Below are positions 9,902 through 28,723 of a stretch of DNA of 28,849 nucleotides, piece after piece. This DNA comes from JAZDEY01 sp043808325 [NCBI: Candidatus Eiseniibacteriota bacterium] (GTDB taxonomy: Bacteria; Arandabacterota; Arandabacteria; Arandabacterales). Under the pieces are notes generated by a model. The model was not told the origin of the DNA and did not search any database. It worked only from the letters and a program-made list of their open reading frames with translations. A program made the position numbers and the translations under genes. Every line of letters starts with the position of its first letter. Within the stretch, counting starts at the first letter, position 1. The stretch spans positions 1-28,849 of the forward strand of contig JAZDEY010000057.1 of assembly GCA_043808325.1 (NCBI GenBank). The letters run 5' to 3'.

Positions 9902-11203
9902 ATGAGAAGCGGCGGGATCGCGGCGATACTGGCACTTGCCTTGGTGTCGTCAGCATGGGGCTATGGCTATCTTGGGGTCGGTCTCGGCACGGGGGTCTTC
10001 CAGGGTTCCGCCAGAGGTGGCGGCATGGGTGAGGTTACCATGCTCAGCGAAGACGGCCCGCTTGCCGTTAGCCTGAATCCCGCGCTGCTGGGGCTTATGA
10101 AGGACGGCCGCGTGGAGGCCACCTATCGTGGCGCGTCCGTTCGCGAAGACTGGGCATTCCCGGTTCATGACAGTTTCGACGCCCTCTTGGGCTACAACAC
10201 CTACTCGGCGAACTCCAATATTTACCACGCCTTCTCGGGGCAGGCCGCTTCGGGGCCATTGACCAGGCTCGGCGGCGTTTGTTTCGCCTTGGCGTCACTT
10301 CCTGTCTACGACTTCAGGTACGATTATGAGGAAGAGGTCCGCGATAGGAACCCCAACGCGCAGCCACCCGATCGGGTGATCGCCAACAACTTCATTCGAG
10401 GCGATGGCGCCATCGCCTCGCTTTCCTTCGGACTCGGTAAGGCCTTCTATCCAAGTTTCTCGCTTGGGGCCGGCCTTGATTACCTCTTCGGCAAACACGA
10501 TCTTGAAAAAGGCATTTCCTTTGTGGATGCGACGCGGATCCCGTGGGCCAGTGGGAACCCGGACACTTCGGGCACGTTTTCGGCATCGGATCTCTCAGGA
10601 ACAAGATTCACCCTGGGTGCGACCTGGGTCTTGGGCGAGAGGGTTGAGGTCGGCGCGGCCTATAAGAGCCGGGCCGAGCTCGAGGGCGATTTCTCCGGAG
10701 AAAACTCGAGCCTGCTCGGGTTCGGGGGAGCGTCAGGGGCCGATGGCGCAAGGATCACCGTCAAGTACCCGGCTTCTTATGCTCTGGGTGTTAGCATCCG
10801 GCCCAGGAACGTGCTGGTCGCCGTCGTCGAAGGCGACGTGGTCTTGACCAAGTGGAGTGATGTCAGCGATGCAGCCGGCATCGCCGGCACCTACCTTGAC
10901 GATACCTACGAGTGGCATCTCGGAGTGGAACACATCTTCTATAACCGGCAGGCTTTGAGGTTCGGTCTGCTCTACAGGCCCTCACCCAAGGAGAAGGAGA
11001 CCAGTGAGGCTGCCGTGACCGCCGGGACCGGCTTCACGATTGCGGGGATCGGGGTCGATCTGGCCGCCAAAGTCGGATGGCGCGAATACCGCCAGCCCGA
11101 CATCTTCAGCGATGAGATCTTTGGAGCCAAGCTCAGGGGTTCGACCGATCTGGTGAAGGAGAGCATCACCGGCGCGGTCATATCAGTAAGCCGGAGATTC
11201 TAG
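9902..11203 (+). CDS. FadL/OmpP1-like outer-membrane transporter
   Basis: This 433-residue protein starts at ATG 9902 behind GAAGGGGG. The signal peptide is about residues 1-20 (SSAWG). The N-terminal pattern SARGGGMGEVTML...LAVSLNPALLGL (about 36-65) is the plug/hatch signature of OMPP1/FadL-type barrels, which take up hydrophobic compounds. The remaining sequence is beta-rich and ends in VSRRF with a C-terminal phenylalanine, the barrel-assembly signature. It lies 15 bases after the HhH-barrel gene and 40 bases before the 5'-nucleotidase, in the same run. Its N-terminal motif is a distant relative of that in the PorV-like protein at 6522. Substrate unknown. Confidence 0.8.
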   Translation: MRSGGIAAILALALVSSAWGYGYLGVGLGTGVFQGSARGGGMGEVTMLSEDGPLAVSLNPALLGLMKDGRVEATYRGASVREDWAFPVHDSFDALLGYNTYSANSNIYHAFSGQAASGPLTRLGGVCFALASLPVYDFRYDYEEEVRDRNPNAQPPDRVIANNFIRGDGAIASLSFGLGKAFYPSFSLGAGLDYLFGKHDLEKGISFVDATRIPWASGNPDTSGTFSASDLSGTRFTLGATWVLGERVEVGAAYKSRAELEGDFSGENSSLLGFGGASGADGARITVKYPASYALGVSIRPRNVLVAVVEGDVVLTKWSDVSDAAGIAGTYLDDTYEWHLGVEHIFYNRQALRFGLLYRPSPKEKETSEAAVTAGTGFTIAGIGVDLAAKVGWREYRQPDIFSDEIFGAKLRGSTDLVKESITGAVISVSRRF

Positions 11204-13077: not shown

Positions 13078-15966
13078 ATGCGAGTCATTGCCGCTACAGG
13101 CGTTTTGTTCCTATTTGCAGTCGTCGCGCTTTCGGGTGTCGTCCTGGCGGCCAGCGCCGGGGATGTTGTCATAAACGAGATCTGGGTCAATGACCCGACG
13201 TACTTTGACGGCGGGGAGTACATTGAGCTTTACAACCGCACTGCTTCCCCGATCAATCTTGCCGGCTGGGTAATAAGCGGGACCGAGTACGACGGCCTCT
13301 GCGGCGAGCATCATCACCAGATTCCCACCGGCATTACGATAGCGGCTCACGGCTACATCGTGATTGCCCGCGATGCCATCACCAATGATGAGGTCCCCGG
13401 TGGCAGCACCGGTTACAGGACCAAGTGGGGCGCCGCGCCGGATCTCGAGATGTACGACAATAGCCGGACCTACGAGGTTGACGATCCGGCTGTTCCCAAT
13501 ACCATCTGTCAGAATCCGGATGCTAATGACGACCAGATCAGGCTGATCCCGGGCACCAGCGATTATTCCAAGTCCTGTTCGGGCTCTTACAACAGGTACG
13601 AAGTGCTGTATCTTTACGATACGGCGGCGCGGACCAACCTCATAGATGCGATGGAATACCGGGACCCCGCGTACTGCACTGCGGATCAGTGCCTGGGTGT
13701 CAATGTATCGGACAACGATGCCTTCGCCGGCATTCCCGACGTGGGCATAAGCCTGGGCAGGGACGCGACGGGCACCGATACCAATAACTCGAGCGCCGAC
13801 TTCCATTATGAAGTGGCCACGCCCCGGGCAGTGAACATCGTGAACACTCCGCCGGATATTTGGACCTTGCGCTACAGCCCGTGTGAGCCGACCTCTTCCA
13901 GTACGGTCACAATCACCTGCTACGCCAAGGACCCTAACGGCGTCACTTCCATGAAATGCTATTACAGCGTGGACGGCGGGGCCTATACGTTTGTGGCGAT
14001 GTCGGCAGCTCCCGGCGACAGCCTCTACTCTTGCGTCCTGCCGGCCCAGGCCGATCAGAAGGAAATCACTTTTTATGTCGAAGCTACCGACGGCTTTGTG
14101 CCTCCGGCCACCAGCAAATACCCTGCGGATGCGCCGGGTGGCGCCTATAGATACCGAGTCGGCACGCAATTGATCTCGACGGTCCAGTACGTGGACATCG
14201 GTGGGGATTCCTCGAGCTATGCGGGCCACGCAGTTAACGTCAGCGGTGTGGTGACCGCGGGCCGAAGTATCTTCAACGCCAATATGTTTGTGATCCAGGA
14301 CGGCAGCGGCCCCTGGAACGGCATTTGGGTCTACGACCCGACCGCCTCGGTGCCGGCCGAAGAAGGCGACCTGGTCACAGTCTCGGGGAAGGTGCAGGAA
14401 TACTACCTGCGCACCGAGATCTATATGTTTGTGGGCTGCTACAACGAGGTCAGCTCGGGTAACGCTCTGCCGGCGCCTGTGACCGTGGCAACGAGCGCCA
14501 TGGCGACCACGTCGACCCTTGGGGAGCGCTATGAAGCCGTTCTCACAAAGGTTGCGAATGTGACCGTCACCAACGATAGCGCCGATGCTTACGGTGAATG
14601 GGAAGTCAACGACGGTTCGGGTGCCTGCCGGATCGGCGCTGCCGGTTTCTATGGCTACACCCCGAATACCGGCGACGTGCTGGACGGGGTCCAGGGCGTC
14701 GGCGACTACTCCTACAGCAACCGCAAGATCGAGCCCAGGTGGAGCGAGGACATCATCGGTCCGCCTATAATCTCGAGCTTGGTTTACGCGCCGCACGCCC
14801 CGCAGACCGGGAATGCGATCACGTTTAGCGCAACCGTGACCGGTGCGAACCCGCCGTTCACCGTGAAGCTCTTCTGCAGCACCAACGGCGGCGCCTCCTT
14901 CGACAGCACGACGATGACCACTTCCGACAGTGTTTATACGGCGGTCAAGGGGCCTTGGCCGAATGGCACGACGGTCGACTACTATGTCAGAGCCACTGAC
15001 GTTCAGCCAATGACCGCGCGCAAGCCTGCCTCCGGGACCTACGATCTCTACGTGGGCAGGGTGACCATCTATCAGGTCCAGTATGTTGCTCCGGGTCTCG
15101 ACAGCTCCAGCTATGCCGGTAAGCCCGTTAACCTCGGGGGCATCGTGACCGCCGCGAGCGGAGAACTCGGCATCAACTACTTCTATATCCAGAACCACGG
15201 CCTATCATCCGATTTCAGAGGTGTTAAGGTGTATGACCGGACGGGTACCGTGAGCGTAGCCCGCGGCGACAGCGTCACAGTTTCGGGAGACGTTCAGGAG
15301 TACTACAACAACACCGAGATTGCGATGTTCTTCCCTGCGGCCGTGACTATCCATTCTCACAGCAATAATGTGCCTGCCGCTACCCCGGTCACGACCGCAG
15401 CGGTCAATATCTCCGAGAAATACGAGGGTGTGCTGGTCCAGGCCAATACTGCAACAGTCAAGGCCGCCAAGGACCAGTACGGCGAGTGGCTGATCTCCAG
15501 CGGCGGCGCTGCCGATACCTGCAAGGTCGGCGATTACGGCACTTACGCCTACGTGCCCGTGGTCAACGACGTGGTGATCGTCCGCGGCGTGGTCGACTAT
15601 GCATTCAGTCAGTACAAGATCCAGCCGCGGCAGGACGACGACGTCTGCTATCCTGCCAAGGCCGGCACTCCTGACGGCACGACCGTGCCTTCGAGGGTGA
15701 TGCTGGCGGTAAGACCCAACCCAATGCTGGATGGCGGCGAAGTGAGATTCGCGCTGCCCGTGACGGGTAACGTGGCCCTCAAGGTCTATAACGTCAAGGG
15801 CGAGCTGGTGCGGACCCTGATCGAGGGCGCGAGCCCCGCCGGTGAGTACAAGATCGACTGGAACGGCGCCAACTCGAGGGGCAACCGCGTGACCTCGGGC
15901 ATCTATTTTCTAAGACTTGAAACCAGAGGTGGATCGGCTGTAAGCAAAGTGGTCGTTTCAAGGTAA
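13078..15966 (+). CDS. Large secreted lamin-tail/OB-fold repeat protein with type IX-like C-terminal domain
   Basis: This 962-residue exported protein starts at ATG 13078, with CGGAGG ten bases upstream. Domains: signal peptide about 1-26; lamin-tail domain about 28-250 (VVINEIWVNDP, GEYIELYNRT); an Ig-like domain about 258-360; OB module 1 about 363-560; a second Ig-like domain about 562-660; OB module 2 about 662-860; and a FlgD/type IX-like sorting domain about 875-962 (YNVKGELVRTL, SGIYFLRLE, ending KVVVSR). The Ig+OB pair is therefore repeated twice. Each OB module has the SSSYAG...VNVSG/VNLGG start and a YE-x-V-L signature. As in the relatives at 2566, 3606 and 26708, no catalytic domain is seen. 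Own promoter; the next gene lies 175 bases downstream. Likely an adhesin or surface binding protein. Confidence 0.85.
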   Translation: MRVIAATGVLFLFAVVALSGVVLAASAGDVVINEIWVNDPTYFDGGEYIELYNRTASPINLAGWVISGTEYDGLCGEHHHQIPTGITIAAHGYIVIARDAITNDEVPGGSTGYRTKWGAAPDLEMYDNSRTYEVDDPAVPNTICQNPDANDDQIRLIPGTSDYSKSCSGSYNRYEVLYLYDTAARTNLIDAMEYRDPAYCTADQCLGVNVSDNDAFAGIPDVGISLGRDATGTDTNNSSADFHYEVATPRAVNIVNTPPDIWTLRYSPCEPTSSSTVTITCYAKDPNGVTSMKCYYSVDGGAYTFVAMSAAPGDSLYSCVLPAQADQKEITFYVEATDGFVPPATSKYPADAPGGAYRYRVGTQLISTVQYVDIGGDSSSYAGHAVNVSGVVTAGRSIFNANMFVIQDGSGPWNGIWVYDPTASVPAEEGDLVTVSGKVQEYYLRTEIYMFVGCYNEVSSGNALPAPVTVATSAMATTSTLGERYEAVLTKVANVTVTNDSADAYGEWEVNDGSGACRIGAAGFYGYTPNTGDVLDGVQGVGDYSYSNRKIEPRWSEDIIGPPIISSLVYAPHAPQTGNAITFSATVTGANPPFTVKLFCSTNGGASFDSTTMTTSDSVYTAVKGPWPNGTTVDYYVRATDVQPMTARKPASGTYDLYVGRVTIYQVQYVAPGLDSSSYAGKPVNLGGIVTAASGELGINYFYIQNHGLSSDFRGVKVYDRTGTVSVARGDSVTVSGDVQEYYNNTEIAMFFPAAVTIHSHSNNVPAATPVTTAAVNISEKYEGVLVQANTATVKAAKDQYGEWLISSGGAADTCKVGDYGTYAYVPVVNDVVIVRGVVDYAFSQYKIQPRQDDDVCYPAKAGTPDGTTVPSRVMLAVRPNPMLDGGEVRFALPVTGNVALKVYNVKGELVRTLIEGASPAGEYKIDWNGANSRGNRVTSGIYFLRLETRGGSAVSKVVVSR
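13850..15660 (+). repeat. Internal tandem repeat: two Ig-like + OB-fold units
   Basis: Within the 962-residue protein, about 13850-14760 and 14761-15660 each encode an Ig-like domain followed by an OB module. Matching landmarks are PPDI/PPII at the unit start, DYYVRATD versus FYVEATD, SSSYAGHAVN versus SSSYAGKPVN, VSGKVQEYY versus VSGDVQEYY, and KIEPRWSEDI versus KIQPRQDDDV. This is a protein-level repeat of about 300 residues; the DNA has diverged. Confidence 0.7.
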
Positions 15967-16141: not shown

Positions 16142-16801
16142 ATGAAGAAGTTGCTCTTGGCTCTTGCAATGATTTGCCTTTTTGCCACCAGCGGTTGGGC
16201 CCTTACGGCCACCTACGGCTGGGAGGACTGCGGGACGGTATTGGGCAGATTTCCGGTCGCTGATCCCAGCGTGATCTGCACCAACGTTGTGGCTAGCGCG
16301 CTTCCGGATTACGTTCACAGTGGCCTGCGTTCGCTGAGGCTTGAGCGCATCGCTACTGTGACAACCCAGGCGTATGTGGCGTGGATCAAGGGTTTAACCA
16401 CCGGTGATATCGTCACGGTCAGAATCTGGGTCTATGACGTTACGACCAGCAACCCGTCGGGTCGTCTTTGGGCCCATTATGCCAACTCGACTGATCCGGC
16501 ATCCTACGGTGGCAGCGCAAGCGGCCCCGGAGAGTATAGCGGTTCGACTGGCTGGGTCCAGATGCTGGCAGCCGGTCCGGCCTCCTGGACCTTCGGTACA
16601 CCCGCGCCCACCGATCCGCTGGCGGATGCCATCATGATTGAATTTCGTAACTATGGCAATATACCCACCAACATTCTGTGGGTCGATGACATCGAGGTCA
16701 CAGCCCCGACTCGCCCTGGCGTCTCGATCGTGTTCCCGTCTCCCGGCCCTTCGGCTACCGAGCCGAGCACCTGGGGTGGCATCAAGGCGTTGTTCCGGTA
16801 A
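16142..16801 (+). CDS. Small secreted jelly-roll-like protein with TWGGIKALFR C-terminal tail
   Basis: This 219-residue exported protein starts at ATG 16142 behind GGGAGG. The signal peptide is 1-20 (ending SGWA). The mature part (about 22-190) begins YGWEDCGTVLG and alternates beta strands, with HSGLRSLRLER in the first half and NILWVDDIEVTAP at the end. This pattern is typical of carbohydrate-binding-module/galactose-binding jelly rolls, but I cannot name a family. A Pro/Ser-rich linker leads to a C-terminal tail (residues 206-219) TEPSTWGGIKALFR. This closely matches the tail of the unrelated lipoprotein at 24075. A strong ribosome binding site and a strong terminator suggest a well-expressed single gene. 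Function unknown; possibly a surface binding protein whose tail directs localisation. Confidence 0.78.
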   Translation: MKKLLLALAMICLFATSGWALTATYGWEDCGTVLGRFPVADPSVICTNVVASALPDYVHSGLRSLRLERIATVTTQAYVAWIKGLTTGDIVTVRIWVYDVTTSNPSGRLWAHYANSTDPASYGGSASGPGEYSGSTGWVQMLAAGPASWTFGTPAPTDPLADAIMIEFRNYGNIPTNILWVDDIEVTAPTRPGVSIVFPSPGPSATEPSTWGGIKALFR

Positions 16802-16824
16802 GAGGTTAGTGTAAGTAAGGTTTT

Positions 16825-16859
16825 AGGCCCCGTCTCGGCTGAGACGGGGCCTTCCTTTT
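16825..16859 (+). terminator. Strong intrinsic terminator
   Basis: A perfect 12-bp stem, AGGCCCCGTCTC paired with GAGACGGGGCCT, closes on the tetraloop GGCT (16825-16852). The T-rich tail TTCCTTTT follows. It lies 24 bases after the stop of the 16142 gene and insulates the glycosyltransferase region. Confidence 0.92.
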
Positions 16860-16939
16860 GGCCACAAGAAGAGGGGCCGCCCAAGAAGCATCTGCTACTG
16901 GTCGTTCGGCTTCTTGTCCTCGCCGGTTCCCAGGTGCCC

Positions 16940-16969
16940 TTGACACCTGCTCGCGTGGTTGGGTAACAT
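16940..16969 (+). promoter_or_regulatory. Sigma70-like promoter of the 17064 gene
   Basis: A consensus TTGACA (16940-16945), an 18-base spacer and TAACAT (16964-16969). The leader would be about 88 bases. The rest of the 16860-17063 gap shows no other clear element. Confidence 0.55.
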
Positions 16970-17063
16970 GGACCTGCGGATTGGCCGGCAGCCGCCCTGC
17001 GCGAATCCACCCGGTTTCGGCTCGGCAGATGTTTGTGGGCCGGCCTGAGGTGCAGTCAAATCT

Positions 17064-19175
17064 ATGCACAAAGCCCTTGAGAGTATCTGGTTGCCGTATC
17101 TTGTTGTCCTCGTCATAGGTTTCGCGCTGTATGCGAATACGATCCCGCACGATTACGCGCTTGACGATAAAGTGGTCATCGCCGAAAACCCGTTCACCCA
17201 AAAGGGCCTCAAAGGGATCGGGGATATTCTCTCGCACGATACGTTCTCGGGTTTCTATGGCGGGCAGGTGGCGCTTGTGCGGGGTGGACGTTACAGGCCC
17301 TTGTCACTGGTAACGTTTGCAGTTGAGCGCCAGCTCTTCGGACAGAATCCGCATATCAGCCATTTGATCAACGTTCTTCTATATGCTCTGACCGGCATTG
17401 TGCTATATGGCCTGCTTTCCACATTGCTTGCCCCTGGCCGGTCAAAGCGCGGGTGGTATTTCTCTCTCCCCTTCGTTGCTACCCTGCTCTATGTGGCTCA
17501 TCCGCTCCACACCGAGGTCGTGGCCAACATCAAAGGGCGTGATGATATCATGGCTTTGCTCGGTGCCTTGCTCGCCTTGCGCTATACGATTCGCTATCTT
17601 GCCACTAACAAAGCCATCTACCTCGTTACCAGCTTCGTCGTCTTCCTTCTTGCCTTGATGTCAAAGGAAAACGCGATAGCATTCGTTGCGGTGATTCCAC
17701 TGACCGTCTTTTTCTTCACCGATCACAAGGCCAGGAGAAACCTTGTTTCAGCCGCGCCGCTCCTCGTGGCAGCGGTTGCTTACATGGCTTTACGGCACGC
17801 AGCTCTGGGGGGGCCGAGAGTCGAGACCGTTCCAGACCTGATGAACAACCCGTTCCTCGATGCTTCAAAGGGAGAGGAGCTTGCGACCGTAGTCTATACC
17901 TGGTTGATCTACGCGAAACTGCTGATCTTCCCTCATCCCTTGACCTTCGACTACTACCCCAAGCAGATTGCTATCATCGGCTTGGCGAACCCGAGAGCGA
18001 TAGCGTCAGTTCTGCTCTGTTCGGCCCTCGTCGCCATTGCAGTAGCTGGTTTCAGAAAGAAGGGGCGGACATCCTATGGGATATGGTTCTACGCGCTCAC
18101 GTTCTTGCCGGTCTCCAATCTCGTATTCAACGTTGGCGCGTTCATGAATGAGCGATTCATGTATATTCCATCCCTGGGTTTCTGCCTCGTCGTTGCATAC
18201 CTGCTGGTCGGTTGCGCCCCCAGGCTCTTCAAGAGCGAAGAGATTGGCAGGTGCGTTCTTGCGGGGGTGGTGATAGCGATTCTATGCCTGTACGGTGCTA
18301 TCGTGACGGGCCGCAACAGGGTGTGGGCGAATGATTACACGCTATGCACGCACGATGTACGTGTATCATCCAAGAGTGCGAAGAGCGCGTGGTCGGCGGG
18401 ACAGCTGCTTGTCGAGGAGGCTGTCAAACTGCGGGACATCAGGACGCGGGGTAACTCGGCCGGGGAAATGATTGCGAGGATCGGCAAAGAGACGCTTCTG
18501 CCGAAGGAGGAGAGAGCTGAATTCCTTGCTTCAGATAGTCCCGATACGCTGAGATCAAAGATCGAGCGACGTGAAAGCGAAATGCACGCTCTCGCGTCGA
18601 AGTATCTAAACAGGGCCCTTGAAATCCATCCGACCTATATCGGTGCCCTGCTGGCGCTGGCCAATGCCCATTGTCAGTATGATGGGGATTATGAGAAAGC
18701 GGCGGAGATCTGTGTAAGAGTATTGTGGATAGACCCAAATTCCGACATTGCGTATCTCGACCTTGAGAGCTGTCTCGAGCAATGCGACGTCGATCTGCAA
18801 ATAAGGATGTGGGAAGAAGCTCTGCGGGTCAATCCTAGTCGTTTTGAACCCAATTTTCATCTGGGCATTCTATATGGCCACTACAAGAACGATCTCGGGA
18901 AGGCAGTTGCCTTTCTCGAGAGATCGGTTCAATTGAACCCCATGAACTCCGAGGCCTATAACAATCTTGGGGTGGCGTATGGATTGGCAGGGCGCTCCGA
19001 AGACGCCATCCGAACTCTGGAGCGTGCGGCCCAGCTCAATCCCACTGATGCCCAGGTGTATGTCAATCTCGGTGTTGCATACAGTTCTCTGGGAAATGAA
19101 GAACAGGCGCTGCGGTGTTCTCGAAAGGCAGAGGAGTTGCAATCGAATCCCCAGCACGGGGGAAACGGCAACTGA
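17064..19175 (+). CDS. TMTC-like membrane protein: GT-C glycosyltransferase core with C-terminal TPRs
   Basis: This 703-residue protein starts at ATG 17064 with GAGGTG about ten bases upstream. About ten hydrophobic segments span residues 8-430. Early loops have DYALDDKVVIAENPF and the RYRPLSLVTFA block, and a later one has HPLHTEVVANIKGRDD. These are hallmarks of the TMTC/DUF1736 family, whose eukaryotic members are O-mannosyltransferases. About four tetratricopeptide repeats follow (about 515-700), for example EAYNNLGVAYGLAGRSEDAI and AQVYVNLGVAYSSLGNEEQA. The family adds sugars from lipid carriers to proteins on the far side of the membrane; this role is inferred here. Its own promoter lies upstream, and another GT-C gene follows on the same strand after 51 bases. 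Confidence 0.82.
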   Translation: MHKALESIWLPYLVVLVIGFALYANTIPHDYALDDKVVIAENPFTQKGLKGIGDILSHDTFSGFYGGQVALVRGGRYRPLSLVTFAVERQLFGQNPHISHLINVLLYALTGIVLYGLLSTLLAPGRSKRGWYFSLPFVATLLYVAHPLHTEVVANIKGRDDIMALLGALLALRYTIRYLATNKAIYLVTSFVVFLLALMSKENAIAFVAVIPLTVFFFTDHKARRNLVSAAPLLVAAVAYMALRHAALGGPRVETVPDLMNNPFLDASKGEELATVVYTWLIYAKLLIFPHPLTFDYYPKQIAIIGLANPRAIASVLLCSALVAIAVAGFRKKGRTSYGIWFYALTFLPVSNLVFNVGAFMNERFMYIPSLGFCLVVAYLLVGCAPRLFKSEEIGRCVLAGVVIAILCLYGAIVTGRNRVWANDYTLCTHDVRVSSKSAKSAWSAGQLLVEEAVKLRDIRTRGNSAGEMIARIGKETLLPKEERAEFLASDSPDTLRSKIERRESEMHALASKYLNRALEIHPTYIGALLALANAHCQYDGDYEKAAEICVRVLWIDPNSDIAYLDLESCLEQCDVDLQIRMWEEALRVNPSRFEPNFHLGILYGHYKNDLGKAVAFLERSVQLNPMNSEAYNNLGVAYGLAGRSEDAIRTLERAAQLNPTDAQVYVNLGVAYSSLGNEEQALRCSRKAEELQSNPQHGGNGN

Positions 19176-19226
19176 TTGGTGGTAAGTGATAGAGGGGTCG
19201 AGGTTGCTCGGGAATTGGGGACCAAG

Positions 19227-20855
19227 ATGAAGCAACGCGCCCAGCCCAGGTCTGCTGCGTGGTTTAGGTATTGGGCTTGGGCAGTGCTCGTCTTGGCCAT
19301 CGTGTTTTCCGCGGCGATCCGTTTTCGCCTGCTGCAAGTTCCACTTGAGCGCGATGAGGGCGAGTACGCCTATGCCGGGCAACTCATCCTGCAAGGTATC
19401 CCGCCCTACAAGCTTGCGTACAACATGAAACTGCCGGGCATTTACTTCGCCTACGCGGGCATCATGGCGGTCTTTGGGCAAACAATAGCCGGGATCCACC
19501 TGGGGCTGATCGCCGCTAATGCGGCGACCATCGTTCTCCTCTTCTTGCTGGCGCGGCGAATTGCCAACGAGACCGTGGGGGTTGTGGCGGCTGTGGCCTA
19601 TGCCTTCGTGTCATTGAGTCCGGCCTTGTTGGGGTTAGCAGCACACGCGACGCACTTCGTGCTGCTGCCTGCGCTTGGCGGTTTGCTGCTGCTTCTCCGT
19701 GGCCTTGAGCGCGACCGTCTCGGCGCGATCTTTGGGGCCGGGCTTCTGCTCGGTTTCGCGTTCTTGATGAAACAGCAGGGCGTCTTCTTCGGAATATTCG
19801 GCGGCATCTACTTGCTCTATTGCGGACTTTCCAAGAGACCCGTTCGGTGGAATGGCATGCTGACGAAGATTCTGGTCTATTCTGCCGGGGCGGCCATTCC
19901 GTTTGGCGCCAGTTGCTTGGGGCTGCGGGCGGCTGGCGTTTTTGACCGTTTCTGGTTCTGGACCTTCTCTTACGCGCGTCAATATGCGAGCGCCCTTGGC
20001 CTTGGCCGGGGGCTGCGGGAGTTCTTAGCGAACTTCCCTGCCTACGTCAAGCCGACGATTCTTCTCTGGATCGCAGCCGGTTTGGGTGTCCTCGAGCTTG
20101 GCGCCGAGTGGAGGAAATGGTCCCACAGTGCTTTCATCGCGGGCTTCCTGATCTTTTCCTTCCTCGCGGTCTGTCCCGGTTTCTACTTCCGCAACCATTA
20201 CTTCATTCTGCTGCTGCCTGCAGTCGGCGTTCTGGCGGGTTTGGCCGTTGACCGCGCCCGCGCGCTGTTTGTGGCAGCACACTCGCGGCTCGGGTGGCTG
20301 GCCGCAGCCGGCTTCGTTGCGATTGTGTGCTTCGGCGTTTTCCAGGAGCGCGCGGTGTTGCTGCAGCTTTCCCCAGCTGCAGCCTGCCGTGCCATATACG
20401 GAGCGAATCCATTTCCAGAATCTTTGGAGATCGCGCGATTCCTGCGCGAGAATTCCTCCAAAGACGCGCAGATCGCCATCCTGGGCTCGGAGCCTCAGAT
20501 TTACTTCTACTCAAATCGACATTCATCGACAGGCTACATCTACACATACGGACTGATGGAGCCTCATCCTTATGCACTAAGAATGCAGCGGGAGATGATC
20601 AATGAGATCGAATCTTCGGCACCGAAATATGTGGTGGTGGTGAACGTCTCCACCTCCTGGCTTTTGAGGCCGAATTCGGAGAGACTGATTTTCAACTGGT
20701 TAAATACCTACATAAGGCAACATCTCGAGCTGCAAGGAGTAGTCGATATCCTGCCCAATGAGAAAACCGAGTATCGCTGGGGCAAAGATGCGGAAGGTTA
20801 CACCCCGCGCTCTCCATATTCCTTGACCATCTTCGGGCAAAAGGCCGGCCCATAG
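19227..20855 (+). CDS. GT-C (GT39/ArnT-like) membrane glycosyltransferase
   Basis: About 542 residues from ATG 19227 (GGGG six bases upstream). TTG 19176 would add 17 residues directly behind the preceding stop but has no good ribosome binding site. The first transmembrane helix is followed by LERDEGEYAYAGQLIL, carrying the Asp-Glu pair expected in the first periplasmic loop of GT39/PMT-type enzymes. Then come about ten more hydrophobic segments, LMKQQG in a cytoplasmic loop, and a soluble C-terminal part (about 400-542). Such proteins transfer a sugar from a polyprenyl-phosphate donor to protein or lipid. It is probably co-transcribed with the TMTC-like gene and points towards the minus-strand GT2 gene. 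Substrate unknown. Confidence 0.82.
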   Translation: MKQRAQPRSAAWFRYWAWAVLVLAIVFSAAIRFRLLQVPLERDEGEYAYAGQLILQGIPPYKLAYNMKLPGIYFAYAGIMAVFGQTIAGIHLGLIAANAATIVLLFLLARRIANETVGVVAAVAYAFVSLSPALLGLAAHATHFVLLPALGGLLLLLRGLERDRLGAIFGAGLLLGFAFLMKQQGVFFGIFGGIYLLYCGLSKRPVRWNGMLTKILVYSAGAAIPFGASCLGLRAAGVFDRFWFWTFSYARQYASALGLGRGLREFLANFPAYVKPTILLWIAAGLGVLELGAEWRKWSHSAFIAGFLIFSFLAVCPGFYFRNHYFILLLPAVGVLAGLAVDRARALFVAAHSRLGWLAAAGFVAIVCFGVFQERAVLLQLSPAAACRAIYGANPFPESLEIARFLRENSSKDAQIAILGSEPQIYFYSNRHSSTGYIYTYGLMEPHPYALRMQREMINEIESSAPKYVVVVNVSTSWLLRPNSERLIFNWLNTYIRQHLELQGVVDILPNEKTEYRWGKDAEGYTPRSPYSLTIFGQKAGP

Positions 20856-20990
20856 TCTTCTCTTGGCATGGTGGATTGCACGCGCATCAGTTCGCCCGAA
20901 CTCGACAGCCAGCAATATGACGATGAGGAACGGAAGCACCACCACGAGAAACCGAGTTCTAGGAGAGAATCTTTCTACCGTTCGGGTCAT
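20700..20990 (-). pseudogene. Possible truncated membrane-protein start downstream of the GT2 gene
   Basis: An ATG at 20990 (minus) overlaps the end of the GT2 gene by 32 bases. It opens a frame beginning MTRTVERFSPRTR, followed by a convincing transmembrane helix (FLVVVLPFLIVILLAVEF). After about 45 residues the frame enters the antisense of the GT-C gene and is no longer credible, ending at 20700. It looks like the N-terminus of a lost membrane protein, perhaps another GT-C enzyme cut off by rearrangement. It may equally be a chance frame; confidence is low. Confidence 0.25.
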
Positions 20991-21720
20991 AGATCGCGAA
21001 TTTCCCCAGGCGGCGTTTCTGTAAGAAGAACTTGAAGGAGGTGACCAGCACACCCCAGCCATAGACTACGCTCCGACGAAAACCTATCGAAGAGCAGCCT
21101 TTTGAGTAGTTGGTGGGCGAGGTGATCTCCCCGATCCTATAGCCGAAGAAGGCCGCCTGCGCCAGCATCTGGTTGTCGAATACGGAATCGTCCGAGTTCT
21201 CAAGCAAGGGAAGATTGGTGAGGACCGAGCTCGAGAAGGCCCTGTAACCTGTATGGTATTCGGAGAGCTTCTGACCCATCAGAAGGTTCTGCAGCAGAGT
21301 GAGTATGCGGTTCGATATGTATTTATAAGCGGGCATTCCCCCCTTACGAGCCATGCCGCCCAGTATCCTTGAGCCGAGCACCACGTCGAACATGTCCGAG
21401 CATATCAAGCCTGCCATTGCTGTAATTAGCTTAGGAGGATATTGGTAGTCCGGGTGCAACATTATGACGATATCGCCCCGTTTCTTGAGGGCCTCGCGGT
21501 AGCAGGTCTTCTGGTTCGCCCCATAGCCCATGTTGCGCCGATGCTCGAAGACCTCTATGCCGAGTTTTCGGGCGACTGCAACCGTATCGTCGCTCGAGTG
21601 ATCGTCGGTAAGCAGAATCTCATCCACGATGTCACTGGGGATATCGTTACAGGTCCTCTTGATGTTTTCCTGCGAATTGTAGGCAGGCATTACCACAATT
21701 ATCTTCTTGCCGTGAAGCAC
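20959..21720 (-). CDS. Family 2 glycosyltransferase, polyprenyl-phosphate hexose synthase (DPM1-like)
   Basis: About 253 residues from GTG 21720, chosen because KKIIVVMPAYNSQENI then falls at the N-terminus as in the family and GGGAGAG lies just upstream. TTG 21801 would add 27 residues without a ribosome binding site. GT2 features are the nucleotide-binding DDHSSDDT (Asp39, Asp40), NMGYGANQKTCYREAL and MLHPDYQYPP near the metal-binding position, then GSRILGG and YHTGYRAFS. DPM1-like enzymes load a sugar onto polyprenyl phosphate in the cytoplasm. That product would be the donor for the GT-C enzymes on either side. No C-terminal membrane helices are evident. It lies opposite to its neighbours, converging with the 19227 gene. 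Confidence 0.85.
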   Translation of the reverse strand: MLHGKKIIVVMPAYNSQENIKRTCNDIPSDIVDEILLTDDHSSDDTVAVARKLGIEVFEHRRNMGYGANQKTCYREALKKRGDIVIMLHPDYQYPPKLITAMAGLICSDMFDVVLGSRILGGMARKGGMPAYKYISNRILTLLQNLLMGQKLSEYHTGYRAFSSSVLTNLPLLENSDDSVFDNQMLAQAAFFGYRIGEITSPTNYSKGCSSIGFRRSVVYGWGVLVTSFKFFLQKRRLGKFAIYDPNGRKILS

Positions 21721-21863
21721 AATCTCTCCCTGTTCAAAAATGTACAGATCGATGCGAGGAGCGCCGCAGTCGTGCGCTCCATCTAACAGTTTAAAACACA
21801 AAGAGTGATTATGGGAGTGCTATTATTGGGTTGCTGCGGTTTCCTCCATTCTTGACTTACCGC

Positions 21864-21892
21864 TTGGCTGTAAGGGCAACCCGTCCTATAAT
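21864..21892 (+). promoter_or_regulatory. Sigma70-like promoter of the 21941 gene
   Basis: TTGGCT (21864-21869) and a perfect TATAAT (21887-21892), with a 17-base spacer. It lies in the divergent gap between the GT2 gene (minus) and the GT-C/TPR gene (plus). Confidence 0.6.
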
Positions 21893-21940
21893 CACGGCAT
21901 CTTGCGAACCGGATAGACCATATAGGAAGTGACCACTGTG

Positions 21941-23944
21941 ATGAGTGCGAGACCAGGAGCAGCCGGAGACGAGCGGGCGCACTCCTTCCGGTGGCGTTAT
22001 GCCCTCATCATCTTGTTTGTGGCTCTGTGCCTGCGCGGCCTATACCTCTTCGAAGCCGCGCCAAGGCCCGATTTCAGCATCTTCTACATGGACGAGGAGT
22101 ACAATCTTGGGTGGGCCAAGAGCCTGGCATCGGGAGTATGGAATCCGCCCTACGACCAGCTCCGCATTGCCCCCTATTTCCGGGCGCCGCTTTATTCCCA
22201 TTTCCTGGCTGGCCTCTTCGCCCTGTTCGGCCCCAATATGCTGCTGGCGCGGATCATCCAGATCATCCTGGGATCGATCTCCTGTGCACTCGCCTACGGT
22301 GTCGCCGCCAGGTGCTTCGGTCAAAGGGTCGGGGTGGTCACGGGAGTTATATGCTCTCTCTACTGGGTCTTGATCTACTTTGACTCCCAATTCCTCCAAC
22401 CGGTGCTCCTGGTCTTCTTGCTGCTCGGCGGGTTGCTGCTTGCCTTCGTGGCGGCCGAGCGGCGGAGCGCCGGGCTCGCAGGCCTGGCCGGGCTCGCGTT
22501 TGGCCTCTATGCCATCACGCGGCCCGAGATTCTGGTCTTCTTTCCATTTGTGATCTGGTGGGGAGTGAAAGTCGCCGGCGCTCGGGCCGGTGCCGGGGCC
22601 GGCGAGCGCGGCGCTCATGGTGCCCACGCTGTCCACGGTGCGCGTTGGTTTATTGCGCTGCTTGTGCTAGGTTTGGTCCTGCCGCCGGCCGCCGCCACGG
22701 TAAGGAACGCGGTGGTGGCGCGCGATCTCGTGTTTGTCGCCTCCCAGGGGGGCGTCAACTTCTATATCGGCAATAACCCCAAATCCAACGGCATGCAGGC
22801 CGTGGTGCCGGGGACACACGAAACCTGGTGGGGCGGGTTTGCGGACACCAAGGCGATCGCCGAGCAGGCCGCAGGCCGGAGCCTCAAGCCATCGCAGGTC
22901 TCGAACTACTGGTTTCGGCGAGGGTTCGCCTTCATACGTCAAGAACCAGGACGCTGGCTCAGGCTGACCTTGAGCAAGGCCGCTCTTTTCATCGGAAATA
23001 TTGAGATCCCCAATAACGAACCCTACGAGGCGCGGCGCAAGGAATACCCGGTACTCAGGATTCCTCTGGGCTTTGGCCTGCTGTTTGGGCTCTTTGCGGT
23101 CTCGCTGCCGGGGATGCTCGGCCTGCGGCGCCGCAGTGGGGCGGCCCGCCTCAAGGTGAGTGCGCCCGGCGGCACCGGGAGCCCGGACGGTCGCGCGGGC
23201 CAGGGGGACCGTGCTGAGTACCTACGGCGCTCTTTCATAAAGCTGATGCTTCAGTTCATGCTGCTCCATGCGCTCACGACGATCGCCTTCTTTGTGACCG
23301 GCCGATACCGTGTGCCCCTGGTTCCACTGGTCGCAATAGGGGCGTCGGTCACGGTTGTGAGCGCCGCGGAGCTTATACGCGCGCGAGCCTACACCCGCGC
23401 TCTTGGGATGGTGCTCGTCGCGGCCGCGATTGCCGGAGTCCTGAGTGTTGACTATTTCGGGGTGAGGCGCGCGACCAGTGGCTTTGCGGCGTATACCGAT
23501 GCCCTGGACCTGCTCGAGACCCGCGACTACGACGGCGCGATCACACGGCTTGAAGCCATCCGGCGCGAGCAGTCGGTCCGAGTGCCGGAACTTTACCTCT
23601 CGCTTGCGCGCGCCTATGCCGGAAGGGCAAGGCCCGAGGACAGCGGCTCAATCCTTCGAGTCGCCGAGGAGGGGCTCGCTTCATACCCGAATGAACCCGA
23701 GCTCTTGTGGTATGCGGCCCTCGGCCACCTAGCCGCGCGGCAGCAGGACCTTGCGCAGGATCGGCTTGACCGCTTGCTGGCTCTCAAGCCCCGGGACATG
23801 AAGGCTCTCCACCTGGCCTTCACGCTGGCGCTCGTTCAAGGGCGAACCCAGGAGGCTCTGGGTCTCCTCGCGCGGGCCGAGGCGATCGACCCGGCCGACC
23901 CTCTGGTAGCCGATATGCGCAGCCAGTTCGCGGCCCGCAAGTGA
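21941..23944 (+). CDS. GT-C membrane glycosyltransferase with C-terminal TPR-like repeats
   Basis: About 667 residues from ATG 21941; GTG 21938 and GTG 21929 are close alternatives, with AGGAAG at 21924-21929. After the first transmembrane helix comes YMDEEYNLGWAKSLASG, the acidic first-loop motif of GT39-like enzymes, then YFRAPLYSHFLAGLF. About ten membrane helices run to about residue 510, and three or four TPR-like helix pairs fill about 515-667. Two loops carry Gly/Ala/His/Arg-rich low-complexity inserts (about residues 214-233 and 375-400), probably recent expansions. The likely role is sugar transfer to surface proteins or lipids; the acceptor is unknown. It has its own promoter. Confidence 0.8.
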   Translation: MSARPGAAGDERAHSFRWRYALIILFVALCLRGLYLFEAAPRPDFSIFYMDEEYNLGWAKSLASGVWNPPYDQLRIAPYFRAPLYSHFLAGLFALFGPNMLLARIIQIILGSISCALAYGVAARCFGQRVGVVTGVICSLYWVLIYFDSQFLQPVLLVFLLLGGLLLAFVAAERRSAGLAGLAGLAFGLYAITRPEILVFFPFVIWWGVKVAGARAGAGAGERGAHGAHAVHGARWFIALLVLGLVLPPAAATVRNAVVARDLVFVASQGGVNFYIGNNPKSNGMQAVVPGTHETWWGGFADTKAIAEQAAGRSLKPSQVSNYWFRRGFAFIRQEPGRWLRLTLSKAALFIGNIEIPNNEPYEARRKEYPVLRIPLGFGLLFGLFAVSLPGMLGLRRRSGAARLKVSAPGGTGSPDGRAGQGDRAEYLRRSFIKLMLQFMLLHALTTIAFFVTGRYRVPLVPLVAIGASVTVVSAAELIRARAYTRALGMVLVAAAIAGVLSVDYFGVRRATSGFAAYTDALDLLETRDYDGAITRLEAIRREQSVRVPELYLSLARAYAGRARPEDSGSILRVAEEGLASYPNEPELLWYAALGHLAARQQDLAQDRLDRLLALKPRDMKALHLAFTLALVQGRTQEALGLLARAEAIDPADPLVADMRSQFAARK

Positions 23945-23968
23945 CGGCGCACGCAGCAAGCGATACTC

Positions 23969-23990
23969 GACCATATCTCCAATTATGGTC
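23969..23990. repeat. Inverted repeat GACCATA/TATGGTC
   Basis: A perfect 7-bp inverted repeat (23969-23975 and 23984-23990) with an 8-base loop, 25 bases after the stop of the GT-C/TPR gene. The following bases are not T-rich, so it is a weak candidate terminator or operator. The word GACCATAT also occurs before that gene at 21916-21923. Confidence 0.3.
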
Positions 23991-24013
23991 ACTTAACAAG
24001 CGTCGGTTCCAGA

Positions 24014-24042
24014 TTGCGTTCTAAGGCGCGCTGTGCTATTGT
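24014..24042 (+). promoter_or_regulatory. Sigma70-like promoter of the 24075 lipoprotein gene
   Basis: TTGCGT (24014-24019), a 17-base spacer and TATTGT (24037-24042). A strong GAGGAGG ribosome binding site follows at 24063-24069. Confidence 0.5.
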
Positions 24043-24074
24043 AGTAACTGAGCCAACCCCAAGAGGAGGCATAT

Positions 24075-24716
24075 ATGATGCCAGCTCGCCGTGTACGCCT
24101 TGCTTTGATTGCCTGCGTGCTACTCGGAGTCGCGCTGATCCTCTCATCGTGCGGGCATGACCGCTCCGCCAATCCCGACCCCGTTTTACCGGACCGACAG
24201 ACCCCGCAGGACTTGCTCGAGTTCTTCACCAAGAGCTTGGAGAATCGGGACATCGCCAAGTACGAGAAGTGCCTGGACAGCGGCTATCGCTTCCGCTTCA
24301 TGCCTCAGGACTGGGCAGTAGTGGGAGTCAGCGCCGATCGCCCTTACTGGGAGAGAACTGAAGACATCACGCGCACCGGGGCGATGTTCCTATCTACCCA
24401 AATCGAGTCAATCAGGTTTGAGCTGGGGGTGGCTGTGGTGGACTTCTTCGTTACTGGGGACACCCTGCTTGAAGCCGTGTATCGGCCGGACATCCGCGTG
24501 ATCGTCAAGATAGAGGGAGAGGAGCCCATGACCTACTGGGTTCACGAGTCGTTGCTCACCATCTTCGTGACGCCGGATCCCGGGGATCCCGCTCTTTGGG
24601 TGATCAGGCGTATTGAAGAGACTCCCACGGCGTATGCTTGCGCCACAGGCCCGGCTTCATCCGGTGCGGACACCGAACCACACACCTTCGGCAAACTCAA
24701 ATCGATGTTCAGATAG
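24075..24716 (+). CDS. Lipoprotein with NTF2/SnoaL-like domain and TFGKLKSMFR C-terminal tail
   Basis: This 213-residue protein starts at ATG 24075 (ATG 24078 is equally placed) behind GAGGAGG. The lipobox LSSC gives Cys26. The mature part begins with a Pro-rich linker, then TPQDLLEFFTKSLENRDIAK...YEKCLDSGYRF. This is a helical start typical of NTF2/SnoaL-like folds, followed by beta strands up to about residue 185. The C-terminal 14 residues (200-213), TEPHTFGKLKSMFR, match the tail of the unrelated secreted protein at 16142. The gene has its own promoter and ends ten bases from the convergent minus-strand gene. Function unknown; it is probably membrane-anchored in the periplasm. Confidence 0.75.
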   Translation: MMPARRVRLALIACVLLGVALILSSCGHDRSANPDPVLPDRQTPQDLLEFFTKSLENRDIAKYEKCLDSGYRFRFMPQDWAVVGVSADRPYWERTEDITRTGAMFLSTQIESIRFELGVAVVDFFVTGDTLLEAVYRPDIRVIVKIEGEEPMTYWVHESLLTIFVTPDPGDPALWVIRRIEETPTAYACATGPASSGADTEPHTFGKLKSMFR

Positions 24717-26707: not shown

Positions 26708-28723
26708 TTGAAAATCAGATTGCTAATGGGTATCGCTGTGCTGTTTGGGGTGATCGCCCCCTGCCAGGCTTACAATGTCTACTATGGTAACCTGCATGCT
26801 CACACATCCTACTCCGACGGCATCGGGACCCCCACTGAGGCCTATGCCTATGCCCGGGACTCGGCGGATGTAGATGTTGAGGCTCTTACCGACCACACCA
26901 ACATGATGACCTCCTCGGAGTACACGAGCATGAAGTCGGTTGCGGCCTCCTTTACTCAGGACGGCGTCTTCGTGGCTCTCGCGGGCCAGGAGCACGGCAG
27001 TCTGAGTACCTCGACCCCCGGATCCTTCGGACACATAAACTTCTACGAGGCGACTTCGCTGATCCCGCAGTACGACAACGGAGGTAAGGACTTCCGTTAC
27101 AATCTTACCGGCACCTACAACTGGATCTTCACTCACACCGACGGCATAACGGGGGCCAAGCTTTTCGGGGCCTTCAATCATCCTTATCCCGGCGCGGGGA
27201 CCGGCGCCGATGCTCAGTTCCACGATTTCGCCTACTCGGTGACGGGCGACTCGGCGATGTCCCTGTTTGAAATCAGGAACGGCAGGCGCACCGAGACCTA
27301 CGAAGCAGAGTTCCTCGAAGCCCTCTCGCGGGGCTGGCATGTGGGTGTGGTCGCCAATCAGGACAACCACGAAGGCATGTGGGGCGATTCTCCCAATCCC
27401 AACAGCGGAAACGATATCTATCTCACGGGGATAGTGGCAAGTTCGCTGAGTAAGGCCGACATCCTGGAGGCCTTGAGGAGCCAGCGCACCTTCGCCGTGG
27501 AAGTCAATCCGGCGACCGACCGGATGGCGGTGCTTTTCCAGTGCGAAGGCCATTGGATGGGCGAGACTTTCCCCTCCGCAGCCGATACCGTCCATTTCGA
27601 CATCACCGTGTCGGCCGTGAACAACTTCGTCACACTCGAACTCGTCCGGAACGGCATCCAGATCGCCTACGTGAGCCCCGGCAGCAACACCTATCACTGG
27701 CTTCCTAAGGATCGCCCGCCGATGGGCGAAAGCTCCTACTACGTGAGAGCCCAGCAGTCCGACGGTGACTATATGTGGTCGAGCCCCATCTGGGTAGTGA
27801 GCTCGAGTGGCGGCTGGAACCTGATAAGTCAGATCAATGCGGACAACGCCAACGGCGAGCCCGTGATGCTGGGCCAGCAGGTTACGATCAAGGGCATCGC
27901 AACGGTCGCCACGGGTACCTTCTCCACTGTCGATAACGACATCTTCGTGCAGGATGCGACGGGCGGCGTCAATGTATACAAGCGCAATACGCAGACCCCG
28001 ACTATCGCGGTTGGGGACAGCCTCAGGGTCACGGGCTATGTCGACCAATATTTCGGCTTGACCAGAATCACGAGCCCCACGATCACCAAGGAAGCTACCA
28101 ATGTCGGAGTTCCCGAGCCGAGGGTGGTCACCACTACCGAGCTTGAGACCGGCGGCGAGACCTACGAGGGCTCGCTGGTCCAGGTCGTGGGCTGCCTGAT
28201 TACCGGCGGCACCTGGCCTCCGGCGGGCTCCGACGGCAGTGTCACGATCGATGACGGTAGCGGCGGCTGCACGCTCCTGATCGATAAGGACACCAATATC
28301 GATGGAACCCCACAGCCTACCGGCCGGATCGATGTTGTCGGGGTCCTGACTCAGTATGACACCACGATTCCATATTTCTCAGGCTATAGACTCCAGCCAC
28401 GCTCCACCGCCGATATCGTGGAGTCGGTTGGGGCAGGAGTGACTCCGCCTGAGGCGGGCCTTGCCTTCACGATCCTGCCCAATCCGGCACGAGGCGATCT
28501 CAAGCTGGTCTTCGGTAAGAGCGGGGCGGTGGGTCCCACCCAGGTTCGTTTCTTTGATGTCACGGGCCGCCTGGTGCGTGAAGCCGTGGCTCAGCCGGGC
28601 GCCGCTTATCTTGACTGGAAGGGCGACGACGCCCAGGGCCGGCTCCTGCCGAGCGGCATCTATTTTGTTGCGGTGAAGACTCCGGCCGGGGAAGAGACAG
28701 CGAAGGTTGTGCTGGTGCGATAA
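26708..28723 (+). CDS. Secreted PHP-domain metallohydrolase with OB-fold and type IX-like C-terminal domain
   Basis: This 671-residue protein starts at TTG 26708 behind GAGGTG. The signal peptide is 1-21 (ending CQA). A PHP domain (about 22-268) resembles CehA/McbA-type metallohydrolases. Metal ligands are visible in NLHAHTSYSDG (H30, H32), LTDHTN (D62, H63), GQEHG (E95, H96), FNHPYPG and NQDNHEG. A beta-sandwich (about 275-365) and an OB module (about 372-580, with YEGSLVQV) follow, then a FlgD/type IX-like domain (about 588-671; FDVTGRLVRE, SGIYFVAVK, ending KVVLVR). PHP enzymes hydrolyse phosphate esters or related bonds; the substrate here is unknown. The OB module is closest to module 1 of the 3606 protein: both share WPPAG and an ID[RK]DT[DN]I block. 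An exported PHP fused to an OB domain is unusual. Confidence 0.87.
   Translation: MKIRLLMGIAVLFGVIAPCQAYNVYYGNLHAHTSYSDGIGTPTEAYAYARDSADVDVEALTDHTNMMTSSEYTSMKSVAASFTQDGVFVALAGQEHGSLSTSTPGSFGHINFYEATSLIPQYDNGGKDFRYNLTGTYNWIFTHTDGITGAKLFGAFNHPYPGAGTGADAQFHDFAYSVTGDSAMSLFEIRNGRRTETYEAEFLEALSRGWHVGVVANQDNHEGMWGDSPNPNSGNDIYLTGIVASSLSKADILEALRSQRTFAVEVNPATDRMAVLFQCEGHWMGETFPSAADTVHFDITVSAVNNFVTLELVRNGIQIAYVSPGSNTYHWLPKDRPPMGESSYYVRAQQSDGDYMWSSPIWVVSSSGGWNLISQINADNANGEPVMLGQQVTIKGIATVATGTFSTVDNDIFVQDATGGVNVYKRNTQTPTIAVGDSLRVTGYVDQYFGLTRITSPTITKEATNVGVPEPRVVTTTELETGGETYEGSLVQVVGCLITGGTWPPAGSDGSVTIDDGSGGCTLLIDKDTNIDGTPQPTGRIDVVGVLTQYDTTIPYFSGYRLQPRSTADIVESVGAGVTPPEAGLAFTILPNPARGDLKLVFGKSGAVGPTQVRFFDVTGRLVREAVAQPGAAYLDWKGDDAQGRLLPSGIYFVAVKTPAGEETAKVVLVR

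Follow-up and report, generated by a model that had tools for sequence, protein, structure and literature searches.

A short C-terminal tail, very probably a sorting signal, on diverse exported proteins of FCB-superphylum bacteria

Results

We describe a tail of about ten residues at the C-terminus of many unrelated exported proteins in bacteria of the Fibrobacteres-Chlorobi-Bacteroidetes (FCB) superphylum, which is very likely a dedicated sorting signal. It came to light in a contig of 28,849 nucleotides (JAZDEY010000057.1, Candidatus Eiseniibacteriota; hereafter, the window), in which a secreted protein and a lipoprotein end in TEPSTWGGIKALFR and TEPHTFGKLKSMFR, respectively (Table 1). The observations on which this is based are the C-terminal position of the tail, the export signal of its carriers, the near-invariance of its W, K and R residues, its exchange with C-terminal domains of the type IX secretion system (T9SS), and its lineage. 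We consider it likely that the FCB superphylum has an undescribed sorting system, in which a tag of ten residues does the job of a T9SS domain of 80, either as the smallest known T9SS signal or as the tag of a separate outer-membrane route. Our specific proposal, for which we judge the case to be about evenly balanced, is that the tail is a minimal C-terminal sorting signal of exported proteins read, probably at the outer membrane, by T9SS or by a PorV-like shuttle.

The shared ending of two window proteins

A preliminary description of the window, made from the sequence alone, had reported a shared 14-residue ending on two unrelated exported proteins. Its coordinates were right, and the translated ends of the two open reading frames (ORFs) are indeed identical at 8 of 14 positions. 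Both tails fit T-[WF]-G-x-[IL]-K-x-[LM]-F-R. As a DNA pattern allowing up to three mismatches, the tail motif has two sites in the window, both mismatch-free and corresponding to the two tail genes, with 0.03 matches expected from shuffles. The two tail proteins are also the most similar pair among the 122 distinct ORF ends of the window (stop-to-stop ORFs of at least 80 amino acids); after shuffling the end residues, a best pair with equal identities arose in 13 of 2000 trials. Neither protein matches a Pfam family at E <= 1, and NCBIfam at the same threshold yields nothing but a signal-peptide match on the lipoprotein (NF058595 "lipo-invert", E = 0.041, below its cut-off), which was set aside as it covers residues 4-44, the signal peptide, and not the tail. 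As the preliminary description had also stated, the tails contain no LPXTG, no hydrophobic segment and no transmembrane segment followed by a basic cluster. The secreted protein shows just a weak similarity to L153, a tail protein from a different genome, and the match ends in the tail.

Homologues of the window lipoprotein are found in 14 of 47 genomes in the phylum of genome G003, titled Candidatus Eisenbacteria. Their ends include TWGMIKSLYR (L190), TWGAVKSVFR (L196) and SWGRIKSIY (L195). Among 13 distinct homologues, the tail is recognisable in four (these three and L201), degraded in four (L189, L191, L197, L198) and absent in four (L188, L192, L193, L194), while the last (L199) leaves its contig. 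Because the homologues variously keep, degrade or lack it, the tail is a module that is gained and lost, and that lipoproteins are able to carry.

Position, lineage and copy number

We scanned a collection of genomes from 84,980 species for T-W-G-x-I-K-x-[LMIF]-[FY]-[RS], written as degenerate DNA, and obtained at least 122 matches in at least 117 stretches. The preliminary description had named occurrences away from the C-terminus as a sign against its reading. A stop codon was not demanded by the pattern, and among the matches listed 108 lie exactly at one, 10 within ten residues of one, and only 4 are internal. Among the stretches listed, 26 are titled simply "bacterium" and the other 91 are named. 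Of these, 87 have titles of FCB type (Eisenbacteria, Krumholzibacteriota, Latescibacterota, Zixibacteria, Ignavibacteria and Melioribacter, Kapaibacterium, KSB1, Delongbacteria, Calditrichota, Neomarinimicrobiota, Chlorobi-type, Gemmatimonadota and Bacteroidetes), one is from Poribacteria and carries the exact tail, and the remaining three (Fervidobacterium, Bacillales, Altiarchaeales) hold matches of the internal kind. L020, the last of the four internal matches, and two near-C-terminal ones (L026, L092) come from ordinary Bacteroidota and look like chance matches. In viral contigs, a version of the pattern that contains the stop codon gave three matches, all at an ORF end as that pattern demands.

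A profile built from 46 tails, that of the window secreted protein among them, was then used to count tails per genome. At E <= 10 the top counts among 23 genomes are 96, 89, 83 and 73; since up to about ten of these per genome may be false by definition, our claims use counts at E <= 0.01. These amount to 15-59 tails in each of the 20 genomes in the phylum of genome G011, 0-33 across the 47 genomes in the phylum of G003 (41 positive), 28 in a one-contig Latescibacterota chromosome (G097) and 17 in a Gemmatimonadota genome (G091), so that the search for further tail-bearing proteins proposed by the preliminary description found them in abundance. Five genomes with Neomarinimicrobiota, Chlorobi, Ignavibacterium and Melioribacter titles (G092-G096) have one each. 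Seven genomes with a chance-like scan match have none (G083, G085, G087, G089) or one (G084, G086, G088), and a lone match is therefore no evidence by itself. Variants of the form T-W-S-x-[IV]-K, with Ser for Gly at the third position, were seen at L158, L183, L141 and L207; as they fall outside the scan pattern, the tail counts are lower bounds.

No Pfam or NCBIfam model over the tail turned up for the window pair, nor among the best 25 of 28 Pfam and the best 25 of 31 NCBIfam families of 78 diverse tail proteins. Among the titles and abstracts listed by searches limited to open-licence PMC papers, none describes it.

Export signals and residue conservation

The carriers of the tail are exported proteins, and not the cytoplasmic ones whose appearance the preliminary description had also named as adverse. 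In 20 regions of genome G011 (356 kb; 282 genes by a gene caller), a home-made rule found a signal-peptide-like start in 25 of the 26 tail genes versus 99 of the 256 others (Fisher p = 4e-9). Among 171 distinct tail ORFs from all loci, 13 are cut at the 5' end; 147 of the 158 that are 5'-complete have such a start, and 11 were rejected by the rule. Of the latter, L139 and L073 clearly begin with a signal peptide when inspected by eye, L018 encodes a membrane protein from a Bacteroidia metagenome-assembled genome (MAG) and is probably a chance match, and the others mostly have no plausible start.

When each position of the motif was freed singly across 4171 distinct ORF ends, W was retained in 71 of 71 cases, K in 71 of 71, R in 71 of 72, Y/F in 71 of 71, G in 71 of 75 (the other four being S) and I in 67 of 71, and 200 permuted motifs gave 0 matches at the same ends. 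This invariance is somewhat inflated, because the loci were partly picked by a profile holding those very residues. Just upstream of the tail core there is a preference for [ST]-P-V-E. AlphaFold models of two unrelated carriers place the tail as a detached helix, with low confidence (predicted local distance difference test, pLDDT, of about 70 and 50 over the tail), and the hydrophobic moment of four tails is 0.54-0.60 at 100 degrees versus 0.22-0.38 at 170. The tail is thus a peptide motif with near-invariant W, K and R, and more than an amphipathic helix.

Carrier proteins

In the tail-rich phyla, 78 tail proteins compared with Pfam have unrelated bodies: beta-helix, LTD, CBM20, pullulanase X25, laminin G, plastocyanin-like, NHL and others. 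Ignavibacteria, Kapabacteria, KSB1, Delongbacteria and Calditrichota have few tails (1-5 at E <= 10; G014-G018, G021-G023), and their main carrier is a signal-peptide protein of about 130 amino acids with an FN3-like domain. Its model has a pLDDT above 90 over most of the body, with FN3 domains among the best structural matches. An alignment of 51 orthologues of this FN3-tail protein has a mean column identity of 34%, with no variation at the T, W, G, I, K, F and R of the tail. The protein is conserved through all five of these clades (examples, L012:476-871 and L015:5561-5950), and MAGs of Melioribacter roseus type encode it at L032 and L112.

We found no neighbour common to the FN3-tail genes of all clades, in clustered and annotated neighbourhoods, and therefore claim no partner. 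Clustered neighbours in Ignavibacteria are a SpoIID-domain protein, Maf and a lysyl-PG-synthase-like protein, with the SpoIID-domain and Maf genes often adjoining the FN3-tail gene; elsewhere there are an HExxH protein (by eye) in Kapabacteria and MoxR or ParA-like (by eye) ATPases in other clades. The HExxH protein (L024:4714-6288, L046:6957-8000), apparently secreted, comes right after the FN3-tail gene at several Kapabacteria loci, and also adjoins a tail gene in G011.

Exchange with T9SS domains

Some bodies that carry the tail fall in families that elsewhere bear PEP-CTERM, MYXO-CTERM or GlyGly-CTERM. At E <= 0.01, the 78 tail proteins match the NCBIfam families choice-of-anchor V (three proteins), choice-of-anchor E, J and X (one each), a MYXO-CTERM family (three), and ScyF PEP-CTERM, ExeM GlyGly-CTERM and the rhombosortase- and myxosortase-dependent M36 families (one each). 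A search for choice-of-anchor V in 32 tail genomes was positive in 11, with 17 matches (one, L219, below the family cut-off), of which 8 carry the tail at their end, 3 a variant tail (L206, L207, L210), 5 what by eye is a T9SS-type domain (L209, L212, L213, L215, L219), and 1 neither (L211).

The same exchange extends beyond that family. Homologous bodies are available for 146 of the 187 tail ORFs, and for 41 of these a relative ends in a T9SS-type domain, as called by a home-made profile from nine seeds; by eye, the 41 cases represent about six body families and belong mostly to FN3 and choice-of-anchor V. Pairs of tail and T9SS-domain proteins also occur within one genome (L161 and L149 in G011, 38% identical over 332 amino acids; adjacent genes in L071 and in L008; and L102). 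The G011 regions, which were chosen around tails, hold 26 tail genes and 22 genes for T9SS-type domains, and no gene has both. The tail therefore exchanges with T9SS C-terminal domains on homologous bodies and fills the slot of a sorting signal.

The two endings have no profile match to each other; what they share is similar end chemistry. Among 64 T9SS-type domains, K or R is the last residue in 57 (versus 25% of all ORF ends) and occupies position -6 in 53, and the tail has K five residues from the end and R last. In published work, the C-terminal 13 residues of T9SS domains, and their motif-E lysines, are described as mattering for secretion (PMC10202324), and a near-invariant Lys as lying close to the domain's C-terminus (PMC10994853).

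T9SS genes in tail-bearing and tail-less genomes

Tail genomes are mostly T9SS genomes. SprA is over its cut-off in 26 of 30, 38 of 47 and 11 of 16 genomes (overlapping sets; the 16 include three non-FCB genomes, none with SprA). Being near-universal in these genomes, SprA neither proves nor excludes T9SS as the reader. The preliminary description had suggested looking for a co-occurring processing protein, and here the outcome was negative: none was identified, and C25 peptidases (PorU family), considered as a tail-specific partner, do not discriminate, as they occur in 30 of 30 genomes tested, tail-less ones included. In G097, the genome of L108, SprA homology is divided between two ORFs at distant sites of the single contig, as if the T9SS translocon gene were split (profile positions 899-1714 and 44-258; main pieces of 183 and 116 bits).

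Discussion

Comparison with known sorting systems

The tail resembles the T9SS domains of types A, B and C (TIGR04183/PF18962, TIGR04131/PF13585, cl41395) in being C-terminal, in being carried by Sec-exported proteins of the same genomes and on the same bodies, and in finishing with a basic residue and having a Lys close to it. As for what defines type A, the tail proteins have the signal peptide, the extreme C-terminal position, the conserved Lys near the end and the basic terminal residue; a folded beta-sandwich is lacking, since the models of two unrelated carriers show the tail, with low confidence, as a helix detached from the body. TIGR04183 and PF18962 match neither tail of the window pair and are not among the best 25 of 31 NCBIfam or 25 of 28 Pfam families for the 78 tail proteins, which include no model of any other T9SS domain type. 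T9SS domains are described as folded domains of about 40-100 residues (PMC11969387, PMC10202324), in contrast to the roughly ten residues of the tail.

PEP-CTERM/exosortase, MYXO-CTERM and GlyGly-CTERM/rhombosortase are likewise short tags on many unrelated exported proteins per genome, with overlapping body families. All three consist of a transmembrane helix and a basic cluster and are read by intramembrane enzymes. For PEP-CTERM, this architecture is described in PMC7468200. The tail, judging by its sequences and position counts, has neither transmembrane segment nor basic cluster. It shares with LPXTG/sortase the principle of a short motif on many proteins, but it has no LPXTG or hydrophobic segment, and its carriers have envelopes of Gram-negative type. 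Finally, it is a short amphipathic C-terminal helix like the anchors of PBP5 or of the MinD/FtsA type, whose sequences vary freely, while the residues of the tail are near-invariant.

Proposed mechanism and its alternatives

We propose that a carrier is made with a signal peptide and crosses the inner membrane via Sec. Its last 10-16 or so residues, a Ser/Pro-rich linker and then the tail, would extend beyond the folded body and probably form a small amphipathic helix, presenting the signal [ST]-P-V-E-x-x-T-W-G-x-I-K-[AS]-[LM]-[YF]-R-COOH. A conserved outer-membrane factor would recognise it as a peptide, not merely as a greasy helix; this factor would most likely be the T9SS translocon or a PorV/PorQ-type shuttle. 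The reading of the tail as a sorting or anchoring signal had already been put forward in the preliminary description, and none of the tests proposed there told against it. Beyond this, we infer that the tail is recognised, that its carriers cross the outer membrane or become attached to the surface, and that T9SS makes use of it.

Granted a dedicated signal, we lean slightly toward T9SS as its reader. A reader of T9SS or PorV type is favoured because the tail replaces a domain of about 80 residues in proteins with homologous bodies, and because the two endings are chemically alike: each has a Lys at the fifth or sixth place from the C-terminus, two hydrophobic residues and a terminal Arg or Lys. 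Several observations weigh against it. Genomes in which no tail reaches E <= 0.01 (G074, G075, G080-G082) also have SprA and C25 peptidases. Three genomes (G007, G048, G049) carry 9-13 tails with no real SprA match, G007 and G048 having just stretches of about 50 residues at 17-20 bits and G049 nothing; this lack could reflect incompleteness, but would also suit a T9SS-independent signal. Lipoproteins carry the tail (that of the window, L190, L195, L196), and lipoproteins are not known as usual T9SS cargo. No reader protein emerged from the FN3-tail neighbourhoods or from the distribution of C25 peptidases and SprA. Five of the nine seeds of our T9SS profile are themselves choice-of-anchor V ends. 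The helices modelled for the tail are of low confidence. The short T9SS domains described in one species still have 40-55 residues and three strands (PMC11969387), the tail being far shorter and predicted to be helical.

The tail might instead be the signal of a T9SS-independent machinery of its own (a receptor, transpeptidase or protease) that coexists with T9SS, which we hold to be possible, at roughly one chance in three. The tail genomes with no real SprA match, the persistence of SprA and C25 peptidases in tail-less genomes and the lipoprotein carriers all speak for it, as do the lack of a common fold between tail and T9SS domains in the models and the fact that choice-of-anchor bodies are elsewhere served by several different systems. 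However, no candidate gene was found, the neighbours of FN3-tail genes differ between clades, and SprA is over cut-off in most of the tail genomes tested.

It is unlikely that the tail is an amphipathic helix binding directly to a periplasmic or outer-membrane lipid surface, with no dedicated receptor. Low-molecular-weight penicillin-binding proteins do have C-terminal amphipathic membrane anchors, and the hydrophobic moment, the helix in both models and the placement of K and R on the polar face would suit such a role. Anchors of this kind keep amphipathicity and leave the sequence free, yet the tail, amphipathic as it is, keeps an invariant W, an invariant K never replaced by R, and G (71 of 75) across unrelated bodies and phyla, none of which lipids need; ten residues are also short for an anchor, and on lipoproteins it would be redundant. 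That the shared ending is due to chance or to common descent of the two proteins is already refuted by the unrelated bodies, the dozens of copies per genome and the C-terminal position.

If the proposed sorting signal is real, it provides a readable label, borne in some genomes by as many as about 60 or more exported proteins, for a large and so far unannotated share of the proteins exported by Eisenbacteria, Krumholzibacteriota, Latescibacterota, Ignavibacteria, KSB1, Zixibacteria, Kapabacteria and relatives. It would also allow its reader to be searched for, and the FN3-tail protein, which is low-copy in Ignavibacteria-type bacteria, would be a clean test substrate. If T9SS is that reader, the minimal recognition element would stand apart from the folded domain that bears it in the examples studied to date.

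A family of probable selenoproteins carrying the tail

One tail-bearing family has an in-frame TGA and probably constitutes a new selenoprotein family. With the TGA read through as selenocysteine (Sec), its members in the phylum of G011 consist of a signal peptide, a CBM6/35-like domain, the motif G-x-G-x-[GS]-Sec and the tail, in this order. The CBM6/35-like assignment is suggested by Foldseek; the sequence match to PDB reaches only E = 0.035, and there is no Pfam family. In that phylum, 17 of 20 genomes were positive, with 20 matches having exactly one internal TGA. In all 19 aligned copies, among them L028, which derives from a MAG in the genome-collection scan, the TGA falls in the same column, and Cys is invariant at position 60. 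Two incomplete copies (L246, L247) have the TGA at the same site; a weak match without TGA (L254, E = 9e-4) proved to be a different tail protein. The search, confined to the phylum of G011, revealed no Cys form.

From about 15 bases after the TGA, the copies can form a SECIS-like (selenocysteine insertion sequence) hairpin of six pairs, each with compensatory changes, in which 90% of cells are paired. Its covariation score is 0.524 versus 0.226 +/- 0.037 for shuffled alignments (19 sequences, whose relatedness inflates such scores). A tRNA-Sec scoring 67-77 bits is present in 21 of 30 genomes, including 9 of the 10 genomes with the family that were tested; the tenth, G033, scores 50.6 bits. 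Overall, tRNA-Sec is over the cut-off in 25 of the 30 genomes versus 5 of 14 controls. As described here, the family is not among the 119 families in Table 1 of PMC13188914, a table in which a few "hypothetical proteins" are not comparable.

Other genes in the window

The preliminary description had assigned a FlgD-like domain to four window proteins. Two of them do have a FlgD_ig-type domain, while the other two instead end in a T9SS type A domain over the cut-off (Table 1); the end of the second of these, at 26708-28723, also scores 27.2 bits against PF18962 (cut-off 27). Of two outer-membrane barrels, that of the FadL family is below the cut-offs of the BamG-like NF053685 (66.8 versus 250) and of the PorV-like NF033709 (34.1 bits versus 90). 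Between the tail genes, at 17064-23944, lie three genes that resemble membrane enzymes.

Table 1. Coordinates of the features discussed (window positions unless a locus is given)
Feature	Position	Strand	Details
Protein with FlgD_ig-type domain near C-terminus	2566..3609	+	PF13860 27.9 bits, cut-off 27, residues 261-328 of 347
Protein with FlgD_ig-type domain near C-terminus	3606..6509	+	PF13860 33.2 bits, cut-off 27, residues 892-946 of 967
PorV/PorQ-like outer-membrane barrel, candidate shuttle type	6522..7409	+	NF033709 54.8 bits, below cut-off 90
FadL-family outer-membrane barrel	9902..11203	+	PF03349 49.4 bits, cut-off 29.7
T9SS type A sorting domain (TIGR04183), end of 962-aa protein 13078-15966	15715..15957	+	37.2 bits, cut-off 23, residues 880-960
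Secreted protein with C-terminal TWG tail	16142..16801	+	219 aa; signal peptide by eye; no Pfam/NCBIfam family at E <= 1
Tail of secreted protein, TEPSTWGGIKALFR	16757..16798	+	Translation; 1 of 46 rows in tail profile
Membrane-enzyme-like gene	17064-19172		PMT_2/TMTC-like under cut-off, with TPR repeats
Membrane-enzyme-like gene	19176-20852		PMT_2 over cut-off
Membrane-enzyme-like gene	21929-23941		Weak Agl23 and TPR-type matches
Lipoprotein with C-terminal tail	24075..24716	+	213 aa; lipobox LSSC by eye
Tail of lipoprotein, TEPHTFGKLKSMFR	24672..24713	+	Translation; divergent F/L variant
T9SS type A sorting domain, end of 671-aa CehA/McbA-type protein 26708-28723	28475..28711	+	26.4 bits, cut-off 23, residues 590-668
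Member of probable selenoprotein family	L151:16740-17321		Homologues L168-L173, L176, L177, L232-L247, L249-L252, L028

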